Shown: in pieces, positions 452 to 10,697 of the stretch
How positions within the stretch are numbered: the stretch's first letter is position 1
Layout: every line of letters begins with the position of its first letter
DNA from: Nitrososphaeria archaeon
Lineage (GTDB): Archaea; Thermoproteota; Nitrososphaeria; JACIWG01
DNA length: 64,000 nucleotides
NCBI GenBank assembly: GCA_029776065.1
Contig: JARVJP010000008.1
Location: 1-64,000 of the forward strand
Direction of reading: 5' to 3'
Program-made: the position numbers and the translations under genes
Notes under the pieces: generated by a model
The model's database searches: none
Seen by the model: the letters and a program-made list of their open reading frames with translations, nothing else
Told to the model about the DNA's origin: nothing

Positions 452-1123
452 TTAGTAAACTCCCCCTCTCAAAACCTTACCTGCTAATTCTTTAGCAGAA
501 GCCTCTTTAAAGGTTGGGCTTTCATTTGCATCCCAAGCCGATTTACTGATGAACGACTTCAAGTTACGGTTCAGTTCCTCTAATTTGTCTAATTGTATTT
601 TAAGCAGAAGCTCTTTGTGTTCGTACTTAATTTTACCAGAAACAGATCGGAAATGGTTTAGACATAGAATAGAGGGTGACGCTTTGTAGACTTCTAATAA
701 TTCAGCTTCAAGCCATGAAATTAAAGAAGCCAAATAATTTTCTTCTGACTCAGCTATAAGTTTGCATAATATGCATTTATCGCCCCAAAATTTGTCATCA
801 TTTTCTGCACGGATCAACTTCCCAATTTGTGATTCTAAGACGTCTTGCATAATTATTGAAATCCCTAGTCCATCTAGACCAGGATGATTGTTTGAGTACG
901 AGAATATGTCCCATAAATGCCTTCTACAAAATCCATCATTTCTTATTTTCTCTCTTGTATTTGGGTCGGTCACGTGCTCATATAACAAGTTATCGATCCA
1001 TCTCTCCTTTCCCTTGTTTAAAAGAAAGCAAATAGGGCAGTCTTCCTTCAAGATGGCGTCTTTTAAAAGTACATAGAAGATATCTTTACTCTTTTTTGGT
1101 TCCCAAGCCTCCAATATATTCAC
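452..1123 (-). CDS. DUF6062-like cysteine-motif protein
   Basis: 223 residues with no signal peptide or membrane segment. The conserved features are 'CPICFLLNKGKERW' near residue 30, 'FCRRHLW' near residue 65, 'CILCKL' near residue 117 and a 'CLNHF' near residue 152. Paired CxxC and FCxxH motifs in a helical protein resemble the DUF6062 family, whose function is unknown, and suggest bound metal or a redox role (inference). It is followed 4 bp later by the prenyltransferase-repeat-like gene. Its 5' end overlaps a possible 50-codon ORF. The family assignment is from memory and is tentative. Confidence 0.62.
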   Translation of the reverse strand: MNILEAWEPKKSKDIFYVLLKDAILKEDCPICFLLNKGKERWIDNLLYEHVTDPNTREKIRNDGFCRRHLWDIFSYSNNHPGLDGLGISIIMQDVLESQIGKLIRAENDDKFWGDKCILCKLIAESEENYLASLISWLEAELLEVYKASPSILCLNHFRSVSGKIKYEHKELLLKIQLDKLEELNRNLKSFISKSAWDANESPTFKEASAKELAGKVLRGGVY

Positions 1124-2920: not shown

Positions 2921-3298
2921 CTATTTATGGAACAATGGACTTGATATTATCAGATCTGCTGTTGCCCTGTTACAGGCTGTTGGGATGTTATATAAAACAG
3001 ATATTCTAAGAAGTGCTTTAACGTCTACATCGTGTGGAAGGGGTGTTAGAGGGTCCCAAAAGAAGATCAGGTAATCTAATTTCCCATTAGATATCATAGC
3101 GCCTAGTTCCATATCTCCGCCATGTGAACCGTCCTTAAGTAAAGTCACATTTAATCCTGTTTTCTCAATTATCTTACGCCCTGTATGGCCTGTGGCATAC
3201 AAGTTATGTTGGGCCAAAGTTCCTTTGTTAAAATCAACCCATTCTACAAGGTCTTCTTTTTTATTATCATGCGCTACTAAAGCAATTGATTTCTTCAT
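2921..3298 (-). CDS. mgsA: Methylglyoxal synthase
   Basis: 125 residues. MgsA converts dihydroxyacetone phosphate to methylglyoxal and phosphate, a bypass of lower glycolysis. Family landmarks run in order: 'ALVAHDNKKEDL' at the N-terminus, 'LYATGHTGRKI' (phosphate site, about residues 33-43), 'GSHGGDMELGAMI' with the catalytic Asp (near residue 62), and 'LIFFWDPLTPLPHDVDVKAL' (about residues 77-96). The final helix of bacterial enzymes, after 'ADLIISSP', is shortened, and the gene stops at TAG. It is a single gene, convergent with the Yip1-like gene. MgsA is uncommon in archaea, so it may have been acquired by transfer (inference). Confidence 0.9.
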   Translation of the reverse strand: MKKSIALVAHDNKKEDLVEWVDFNKGTLAQHNLYATGHTGRKIIEKTGLNVTLLKDGSHGGDMELGAMISNGKLDYLIFFWDPLTPLPHDVDVKALLRISVLYNIPTACNRATADLIISSPLFHK

Positions 3299-4658: not shown

Positions 4659-5624
4659 CTAGACCGCCTCAATAGTTGAAGGAGGCTTTGTCGCTATATT
4701 GTATGTAACACTGACCACACCTTGGACTTCCGATGTCAACCTACTGGCTAAACGAAAGAGAATGTTGTAAGGGATCTTTGTAGGAGTGGCTGTTTTAGCG
4801 TCTACACTATCCCAGCATCTGACCTCGACCTGGAGGCCAAATTCTCTCTTTCCACTTCTTAAGCCTGTCACCTTGTCTGAATGTAGAATGGCGAGGCATT
4901 GGAAGGCTTTTATGCCTTGCAACTCTTCTTCCACAATATTCGTAGCTTTTCTAACTATTTCAACCCTTTCTGGTGTTACTTCCCCTATTATTCTCGCAGC
5001 CAGTGCAGGTCCTGGAAAGGGGGGTCTAGCATATATGCTCTTTGGCAACCCGAGGTATTTTGCTATCTTTCTCACAGCGGGTTTCCTTAACTGGATTATT
5101 GGCTCTATGACTTTGTATCCAAATTCTTTTTCTGTGTTGATGCCTAGTTGTTCTAACACATTATGTTGTCTCTTTATCTTAGCCACCGTTTCCTCAATAT
5201 CTGTGTAGTTGGTTCCTTGCAGGAGGAATTTTATTCCACTGTCTTTAACGATCTTCCCAAACACTCTTTTGTAGAAGGTTTGGGTTATAGCCTCCCTCTT
5301 AATCTCAGGGTCTTCAATACTCTTCAAAGCTTCGAAAAACTCTTTCTTAGCATCTACAAGCTCTACTTTGACGCCTAACTTCTTGAATGTATTCACAACA
5401 TTTGTTGGTTCACCCTCTCGCATTAACCCATTCTCTATAAAGTAAGTCTCCAACCTATCACCTATGGCTCTATGCGCTAACATGGTTACAACAGACGAGT
5501 CAACTCCACCAGATAACGCGTTGATTGCCCTGTTCTTTCCAATAATCTCCCTAAGCTCTGCAACCTTCTCTTCAATGAACTTTTTTGGGTCTAACTCTTC
5601 TAACTTTATTTCTTGAATCTCCAC
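4659..5624 (-). CDS. Divergent GMP synthase subunit B (PP-ATPase) paralogue
   Basis: 321 residues, clearly of the archaeal GuaAb type: a PP-loop 'LSGGVDSSVVTMLAHRAIGD' near residue 37, then 'PFPGPALAARIIGEV' and a C-terminal dimerisation domain ending 'ATKPPSTIEAV'. It has no glutaminase domain. Several near-invariant GMP synthase positions have changed: the IKSHHNVGG loop reads 'IKRQHNVLEQLG', RHPFPGPGL reads 'RPPFPGPAL', and the MTADxxxLP segment reads 'TATPTKIP'. A complete guaA lies 3.5 kb away, so this copy is unlikely to be the housekeeping enzyme. It may adenylate another substrate (inference). The start is a GTG at 5624 about 20 bp after an 'AATATAAG' box. Confidence 0.8.
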   Translation of the reverse strand: MEIQEIKLEELDPKKFIEEKVAELREIIGKNRAINALSGGVDSSVVTMLAHRAIGDRLETYFIENGLMREGEPTNVVNTFKKLGVKVELVDAKKEFFEALKSIEDPEIKREAITQTFYKRVFGKIVKDSGIKFLLQGTNYTDIEETVAKIKRQHNVLEQLGINTEKEFGYKVIEPIIQLRKPAVRKIAKYLGLPKSIYARPPFPGPALAARIIGEVTPERVEIVRKATNIVEEELQGIKAFQCLAILHSDKVTGLRSGKREFGLQVEVRCWDSVDAKTATPTKIPYNILFRLASRLTSEVQGVVSVTYNIATKPPSTIEAV

Positions 5625-9155: not shown

Positions 9156-10697
9156 TTATTGGGGCTCTATTGTGGCTGGTGGTTTACTAGATACGCAGTA
9201 GCTGACAGAAGCAACGTCTTTTACCTCGTTTGTTATTCTTTGACTTATTTGCTCTAACAACTTCGATGGTAACTTAGCCCAGTCAGCAGTCATCCCATCT
9301 CTTGATGTGACGACTTTAACAGTGACCATGTACCCATACATCCTAGTATCACCTACTACTGCAACTGCTTTATCATCACCTACATACGCAAACGCCTGCC
9401 AGACCTTGCCATAATATCCCGCTTTTTTGAGCTCTTCCTCAACAATTGCACTCGCTTCTCTACTAACTCTCAGCTTTTCTTCATTAACTTCGCCAATTAT
9501 CCTAGCAGATAGGCCAGGGCCTGGAAAAGGGTGTCTTTTAACAATTGAATCGGGTAGACCAAGCTTAGACGCGATCCTTCTGACTTCGTCTTTATACATG
9601 TATCTAAGGGGTTCTATTAGCTTATACGGTAGTTTAGAGGGCAAGCCTCCCACGTTATGGTGGCTTTTTATGGTTGCAGCCGGGCTACCTGCCTTCGCAC
9701 TCTCTATTACGTCAGGGTAAAGTGTTCCCTGAGCCAGGTATGCGAATGGCCCGTGCTTCGCTGCGACTTCATCAAATACTTCCAAAAAGGTTTCACCCAC
9801 CACCTTCCTTTTAGTCTCTGGGTCGGCAACGTTTTTTAGACATTTAAGAAACCTTTCCGAGGCGTCAACGTATACAATATTTAGACCTAGCTTGTTAAGT
9901 GACTTTATCACTGATTCAGGTTCCCCTTTTCTGAGCAGTCCGTTATTGACGAAGACGCATACAAGGCTGTCTTTAGCCACCTTTTTAACCAAGACAGCTG
10001 TAACTGTAGAATCTAATCCGCCGCTAACTGCGCAAACCACCTTACCACCATTATACTCTTTTTTAATTTCTTCAATAGCTTGGAATATAAAGTTCGAGGC
10101 CTTCCAGTTAGGTTTGCAACCGCAAACTTTGTAAAGAAAATTCTTTAAGATCTTTTTTCCTTCAACTGTGTGAACAACTTCTGGGTGGAACTGTACACCA
10201 TATATCTTTCTTTTAGGGTTGTAGAAAGCTGCGAACTTGCTGTGCTGTGTTATAGCTAGGTTTATGAAACCTTTAGGAAGCTTTTCCACCTGATCGCCAT
10301 GGCTCATCCAGACTATTGTCTCCTTTCCCACACCTTTGAAGAGTCGATCTTCTTTTTTGATAATGAGTTTTATCCGCCCGTATTCGCGGTAGTCTGCTTT
10401 AGAGACGACCCCATCAAACTGGGCTGCTATAAGTTGATGGCCATAGCATATACCTAGAATTGGAATATTAAGAGAGTACACGCTCGCGTCTATTTTTGGT
10501 GCATTCTCATCATAAATACTAGAAGGTCCTCCAGAGAAGATGATTCCTTTCAAGTTTAGAAGGTCTTTAAGAGTGTAAGGTGCCTTATCCCATGCTATAA
10601 CCTCACTGTATACTTTGAGTTCTCTGATTCTTCTACTTATCAAGTGTGCGTATTGACCCCCAAAATCTACTACAGCAACTGTGTCGTACGATACCAT
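9156..10697 (-). CDS. guaA: GMP synthase (glutamine-hydrolysing), full length
   Basis: 513 residues. It converts XMP, ATP and glutamine to GMP, the last step of guanine nucleotide synthesis. The N-terminal class I glutaminase (about residues 1-192) has nucleophile Cys in 'GICYGHQ' and the His/Glu pair in 'VQFHPEVVH'. The PP-ATPase domain has 'AVSGGLDSTVTAVL' (about residue 217), then 'IKSHHNVGGLP', 'KRHPFPGPGLSARIIGEV' and 'RDGMTADWAKLP'. The C-terminus 'SSKPPATIEPQ' replaces the more common ATIEWE. All key residues are present, so this should be the working enzyme. It is the fused type, unlike the two-subunit form of many euryarchaea. Confidence 0.96.
   Translation of the reverse strand: MVSYDTVAVVDFGGQYAHLISRRIRELKVYSEVIAWDKAPYTLKDLLNLKGIIFSGGPSSIYDENAPKIDASVYSLNIPILGICYGHQLIAAQFDGVVSKADYREYGRIKLIIKKEDRLFKGVGKETIVWMSHGDQVEKLPKGFINLAITQHSKFAAFYNPKRKIYGVQFHPEVVHTVEGKKILKNFLYKVCGCKPNWKASNFIFQAIEEIKKEYNGGKVVCAVSGGLDSTVTAVLVKKVAKDSLVCVFVNNGLLRKGEPESVIKSLNKLGLNIVYVDASERFLKCLKNVADPETKRKVVGETFLEVFDEVAAKHGPFAYLAQGTLYPDVIESAKAGSPAATIKSHHNVGGLPSKLPYKLIEPLRYMYKDEVRRIASKLGLPDSIVKRHPFPGPGLSARIIGEVNEEKLRVSREASAIVEEELKKAGYYGKVWQAFAYVGDDKAVAVVGDTRMYGYMVTVKVVTSRDGMTADWAKLPSKLLEQISQRITNEVKDVASVSYCVSSKPPATIEPQ

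Follow-up and report, generated by a model that had tools for sequence, protein, structure and literature searches.

GMP synthetase is the textbook case of a glutamine amidotransferase with an obligatory glutaminase. In the two-subunit archaeal form (P. horikoshii 2dpl/3a4i, M. jannaschii 6jp9), the GuaAb protein is a stand-alone ATPPase with a dimerisation domain. In the fused form, GuaA, a homologous ATPPase half is joined to a GATase domain, and a survey table covering 730 genomes lists bacterial guaA as 100% fused, so that a glutaminase-free class of GMP synthetase is not recognised there (PMC3376133). Isolated ATPPase domains of known enzymes can aminate XMP with NH3 in vitro (PMC10526850). 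The NadE proteins are a PP-loop amidase family in which some members carry a glutaminase and others lack one, and both kinds sometimes occur in the same genome (PMC3376133).

Here we compare these systems with P0001, a GMP-synthetase-like ATPPase encoded in the window, our term for the whole stretch of 64,000 nucleotides that was analysed. P0001 belongs to a family that we call QHN, composed of clade A (the P0001 type) and its sister, clade B; we found no description of it in the open-licence papers searched. Weighing the sequence evidence set out below, we favour with modest confidence the reading that P0001 is a glutaminase-independent GMP synthetase (an NH3-dependent XMP aminase) of a separate sister family.

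The locus and its setting

P0001 carries the PP-loop SGGVDSS, PFPGPAL and KPPSTIE, the landmarks from which an earlier note on this DNA had rightly recognised a GMP synthase B-type enzyme, together with IKRQHNVLEQLG and a Pfam GMP_synt_C domain. Domain search finds no glutaminase in it, as that note had said, but two-subunit GuaAb normally lack a fused glutaminase as well. Against TIGR00884 (guaA_Cterm) the protein scores 313.1 bits, below the curated cut-off of 338.75, which some clade-B members exceed (357.5 in G276). Its AlphaFold model (pLDDT 84, pTM 0.83, with low confidence in the lid and the C-terminal tail) is structurally closest to GuaAb, including the XMP complex 6jp9 (TM-score 0.85-0.91 on target). 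The plus strand at these positions is full of stops and has no open frame. With P0001 as query, a genome scan identified 45 loci, the majority of them nearly full-length and 63-75% identical, in Nitrososphaeria, Bathyarchaeota, Diapherotrites, Desulfobacterota, Omnitrophota, Elusimicrobiota, WOR-3 and Shapirobacteria MAGs, and judged by this conservation the gene is under constraint.

The complete guaA reported nearby is indeed a full fused gene on the same strand; its product is 41% identical to P0001, which differs from it in having no GATase domain and in its changed lid and alpha-12. Between the two lie three genes, whose products are an SDR, a URO-D-like protein and one with no Pfam match. 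The description of P0001 as a paralogue beside guaA fits this window but not the related genomes: within the same GTDB family the QHN gene and guaA lie on different contigs, so their closeness is not conserved.

Table 1. Positions in the window of the P0001 gene, its functional segments and the comparison gene
Feature	Position	Strand	Remarks
QHN-family GMP-synthetase-like ATPPase P0001	4659..5624	minus	321 aa; GTG start at 5624; no glutaminase domain
PP-loop SGGVDS, residues 38-43, pyrophosphate binding	5496..5513	minus	coordinates computed from residue numbers
Alpha-11/lid segment D142..E145..K151-R-Q153-H154-N155-V156	5157..5201	minus	catalytic D, E, K, H, N kept; PfH388 to Gln153; roles from PMC10526850
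Alpha-12 RKPAV, residues 180-184	5073..5087	minus	PPi lysine K181 kept; Mj D167/E168 glutaminase-docking acidic pair is P182/A183; roles from PMC10526850
C-terminal KPPSTIE, residues 313-319, XMP-phosphate loop	4668..4688	minus	roles from PMC10526850
Canonical fused glutamine-hydrolysing GMP synthase GuaA, comparison gene	9156..10697	minus	513 aa; NF000848 712 bits, above cut-off

Elsewhere in the window, a fluoride riboswitch (RF01734, 1129-1208, minus strand; 40.7 bits, which exceeds the gathering threshold) immediately precedes the gene for a DUF6062 protein (452-1123, minus strand), which, given the riboswitch, may respond to fluoride. Downstream of a Na+/H+ exchanger, this archaeal genome encodes a small MGS-like (methylglyoxal synthase-type) protein (2921-3298, minus strand).

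Active site, lid and docking helix

We scored residues in 85 clade-A, 31 clade-B, 37 two-subunit-type and 50 fused-type sequences, grouped by motif and ORF length (116 QHN and 87 canonical sequences in total), at XMP/ATP contact and catalytic positions taken from PMC10526850 and PMC11448925. The four PP-loop positions scored (S, G, D, S) are each kept in 116/116 QHN and 87/87 canonical sequences. All 116 QHN sequences likewise have the xanthine-O6 Arg (R110), the phosphate Lys (K313), the phosphate Arg of the other chain and PGP, as well as the catalytic Asp (D142) and Glu (E145), the lid Lys (K151), the second lid His (H154) and the lid Asn (N155); the ribose Gln (Q242) is present in 114 of them, and the phosphate contacts R260, K313 and E319, and also K181 and R185, are essentially kept. 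QHN retains essentially all XMP and ATP contacts and catalytic residues, the TIE loop included.

The earlier note had taken the ATP-activating residues to be kept and the XMP-loop residues to be lost. The first part stands, but the XMP contacts are invariant or nearly so (PMC10526850, PMC11448925): when the sequences were scored at these positions, the contacts known from published structures proved to be kept in QHN. What has changed among the substrate-facing loops is the lid, which differs and has Gln for His, while the published contacts persist. PFPGPAL does replace PFPGPGL, but some ordinary archaeal GuaAb with a canonical lid (L280-L282) have PFPGPA too, and the loss of MTAD is not diagnostic, the solved archaeal GuaAb having MTAN (P. 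horikoshii) or MTAH (M. jannaschii).

In the lid, the first His (PfH388) is Gln in 116/116 QHN sequences, so that the invariant motif IK(T/S)HHN is absent. The lid S/T (PfT387) is Arg in 84/85 clade-A sequences and the alpha-12 Tyr is Arg in clade A; clade B retains the canonical Y/F and S/T where clade A has these two Arg. At the position of Mj G106, clade A has Thr and clade B Arg. Five clade-A invariants (R152, R180, T114, Q153 and A207) are absent from canonical enzymes. Clade A has Ser at Mj R294, a change that is not diagnostic because the fused GuaA of the window's relatives vary there too. A longer lid or an insertion was considered and rejected: total lid length is unchanged (29 in QHN versus 28-31), so the segment is re-registered.

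The glutaminase-coupling Asp (PfD412/MjD167) is present in 87/87 canonical sequences, fused and two-subunit, and in 16/116 QHN sequences, having been lost from the other 100; the alpha-12 cross-talk motif KD(D/E)V(K/R) is absent from QHN, P0001 having Pro/Ala. Because this Asp docks the glutaminase, its loss argues that QHN enzymes would use free NH3, and it supports the suggestion already made of a different amine source, with free NH3 in place of a docked glutaminase.

Two further readings can be weighed on these residues. A LarE-type sacrificial sulfur transferase is hardly credible: LarE shares with QHN the PP-loop fold and adenylation of the substrate, and P0001 has a secondary LarE HMM match of 55.8 bits as well as Foldseek matches to LarE, which rank after all GMP synthetases, but the HMM score is far below the cut-off of 150 bits and P0001 has a full GMP_synt_C domain. 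Neither the sacrificial nor the three cluster-binding Cys of LarE has a counterpart, there being no invariant Cys in clade A (C270 in 39/42, C243 replaced by Tyr in most). A catalytically dead paralogue retained as a regulator or scaffold would account for the loss of one catalytic His and for coexistence with GuaA; with the other catalytic residues invariant across two domains of life, and QHN the sole homologue in some genomes, we hold it to be very improbable.

Family extent and genomic company

In an unrooted tree of 80 sequences, calculated with the lid columns removed, QHN (A+B, 100/99) lies outside all fused and two-subunit enzymes, with clade A at 100/100 and clade B at 98/94; on this evidence QHN is a monophyletic family distinct from fused GuaA and two-subunit GuaAb. 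Motifs form a gradient from canonical IK(S/T)HHN..PGPG through clade B IK(S/T)QHNVLEQIG to clade A (I/V)KRQHN(I/V)LEQLGID..PGPA. QHN resembles two-subunit GuaAb in architecture and in its XMP/ATP contacts, and differs in the lid (KxQHN..LEQ(I/L)G versus K(S/T)HHN), in DxxET versus DxxES, in the lost docking Asp/Glu and in forming a separate clade. The expectation that P0001 belongs to a divergent GuaAb-like clade outside ordinary GuaA and GuaAb was borne out, as was its usual coexistence with an intact guaA; adjacency to guaA was not.

It is quite improbable that QHN proteins are ordinary two-subunit GuaAb whose glutaminase activity is supplied by the resident GuaA, through its GATase domain, or by an unlinked GATase. 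Two-subunit GuaAb is indeed known from archaea, and in M. jannaschii the association of the two subunits is only transient (PMC10526850), but the docking Asp/Glu pair that is invariant in two-subunit enzymes is lost from QHN, the tree places QHN outside those enzymes, and tblastn of about 100 QHN loci found no GuaA-type GATase near any of them, the single match being a canonical-type locus (L305).

The archaea of L305 (G1067) and L306 (G1032) carry a second GuaAb-type protein with the lid VKAHHN, in G1067 in tandem with the first GuaAb; it falls beside bacterial GuaA in the tree, which suggests transfer. GMP-synthetase homologues are also found on viral contigs (L320-L340, IMG/VR). A viral origin of QHN was rejected, the IMG/VR relatives being at 33-45% identity only and none at clade-A level.

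QHN is found in both archaea and bacteria with an anaerobic way of life, ranging over Nitrososphaeria, Bathyarchaeia, DPANN, Desulfobacterota, Omnitrophota and WOR-3. It is present in 62/345 sampled genomes of the Desulfobacterota-type phylum and in about 9/156 genomes of the phylum to which the small L030 archaeon belongs; in the window's phylum 40/398 genomes match at E<=1e-75, most of these being the sister group at 44-54% identity.

Full-length GuaA accompanies QHN in 23 of 29 QHN genomes of one sample. At least 14 genomes have an IMPDH-family gene (PF00478, which does not tell IMPDH from GMP reductase) and QHN as the sole GuaA-ATPPase homologue found; two of these are single-contig cases, most genomes being fragmented MAGs in which gene absence is weak evidence. 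Nine are Desulfobacterota-type (G070, G255, G276, G312, G494, G512, G569, G069, G075) and five are small-genome archaea (G132, G203, G208, G232, G145); the evidence is firmest for G276 and G070, each on a single contig (a chromosome in G070), and for G255, the sister of G070. QHN, a PurA-like gene and IMPDH share one contig in G203, and in G658 an IMPDH-family gene lies 1.7 kb from QHN. These sole-QHN genomes are supportive of GMP synthetase activity rather than proof of it. They also speak, together with the retained XMP contacts, against the new adenylation substrate that the earlier note had deduced. On the single-contig chromosome of G070, canonical guaA is reduced to a C-terminal 142-residue remnant (L311:5262-5690) directly before a hisH-like gene.

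Some small genomes with QHN have no IMPDH-family gene (G081, G172, G187, G087, G076). The argument that small genomes lack IMPDH, and hence that the substrate is not XMP, was rejected: in several small-genome archaea an IMPDH-family gene accompanies QHN as the only GuaA homologue found, and PF00478 is missing at this threshold from 2/14 control genomes, both archaeal, as well. Replacement of guaA by QHN was likewise rejected as a general explanation, since guaA loss is not enriched in QHN-positive Desulfobacterota (missing in about 10/58 with QHN versus 3/24 without).

The chief rival to an NH3-dependent GMP synthetase is a neofunctionalised enzyme in which XMP, or a closely related purine nucleotide, is still adenylated but is then attacked by another nucleophile (an amine, an amino acid or a sulfur donor), or which acts on another purine-like nucleotide. 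The clade-A invariants, among which the two Arg could bind a carboxylate, would fit such an enzyme, as would coexistence with guaA in most genomes and the presence of QHN in genomes without guaA and without an IMPDH-family gene. We nevertheless consider it unlikely: the xanthine-O6 Arg, the ribose Gln, the phosphate ligands, and the lid Asn and alpha-11 Glu of the ammonia step are retained, genomes with IMPDH and QHN as sole GuaA homologue need QHN for GMP, and sister clade B retains Y/F and S/T at both Arg positions.

Across about 100 QHN neighbourhoods we found no conserved neighbour except HisF2, an orphan HisF paralogue, in Desulfobacterota. HisF2 adjoins QHN in 8 genomes, in upstream, downstream same-strand and divergent arrangements. 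In the 345-genome Desulfobacterota-type sample it is present in 49/62 genomes with QHN versus 32/283 without (Fisher p about 7e-26, a value inflated by relatedness; adjacency is the better evidence). In all, 81 of the 345 genomes carry HisF2 (motif MPCLDM; for example L241:7752-8513, L200:9977-10738 and L038:265-1068), which occurs in many of them beside a canonical HisF. HisF2 keeps the Asp-11 region, and in nearly all copies the Asp-130 region, but E167 is Val, Thr or Ala in nearly all copies and L170 is Pro, whereas the four readable canonical HisF copies of the same genomes keep Glu and Leu. E167 is a HisH-interface residue, and E167A weakens HisH binding 10-fold (PMC9032424). From these parallel sequence changes, which we offer as a lead, QHN and HisF2 look like synthase halves without their glutaminases. 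A purine/imidazole nucleotide pathway in Desulfobacterota in which QHN, acting with HisF2, adenylates XMP or a near analogue and couples it to a nucleophile other than NH3, such as an amino acid held by R152 and R180, seems to us rather doubtful.

At one HisF2 locus the next genes are asnS-like and asnA, whose product is the ammonia-dependent asparagine synthetase. A conserved operon with CarA, CarB, GatB/GatCA, AsnA or UPF0047 was rejected, each being found at one to a few QHN or HisF2 loci, which is too few. UPF0047 (YjbQ) is a direct neighbour of QHN at a few unrelated loci, and in Bathyarchaeia the clade-B paralogue has an RtcB-like gene about 95 bp upstream (L044:4400-5887, L158, L151).

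A candidate ammonia-fed GMP synthetase

As an NH3-dependent GMP synthetase, P0001 would hold ATP.Mg in its PP-loop, with XMP occupying the customary pocket at the dimer interface. Adenyl-XMP would be formed by the retained D142, E145, K151 and H154, and N155 with E145 would guide the attack of ammonia, yielding GMP, AMP and PPi. Without a glutaminase partner, the docking residues of alpha-12 would have drifted, and the lid would have been rebuilt (His to Gln, LEQLGID for GGLP), perhaps to close the site unaided. We infer XMP as the substrate, NH3 as the nucleophile and the physiological role, which would be that of an NH3-dependent isozyme beside glutamine-dependent GuaA, like NadE beside NadE-long or AsnA beside AsnB, and of the sole GMP synthetase in some genomes. 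Single-domain NadE is an analogue in the way it works, but it has another acceptor and no XMP domain.

Several observations count against this reading. Most genomes hold an intact guaA, which leaves the need for a second GMP synthetase to be explained; some small genomes have QHN but no IMPDH-family gene; R152, R180 and T114, invariant in clade A, lie near the active site and are not explained by NH3 use alone; and Q153 occupies the position at which PfH388A significantly lowers adenyl-XMP formation (PMC10526850).

If the reading is right, a widespread glutaminase-free sister family, with its link to HisF2, would represent an ammonia-fed branch of purine and histidine nucleotide amination in anaerobes, and QHN would be a natural experiment on the role of the invariant lid His and the cross-talk helix. 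If the nucleophile is not ammonia, QHN would be a new nucleotide-modifying enzyme.
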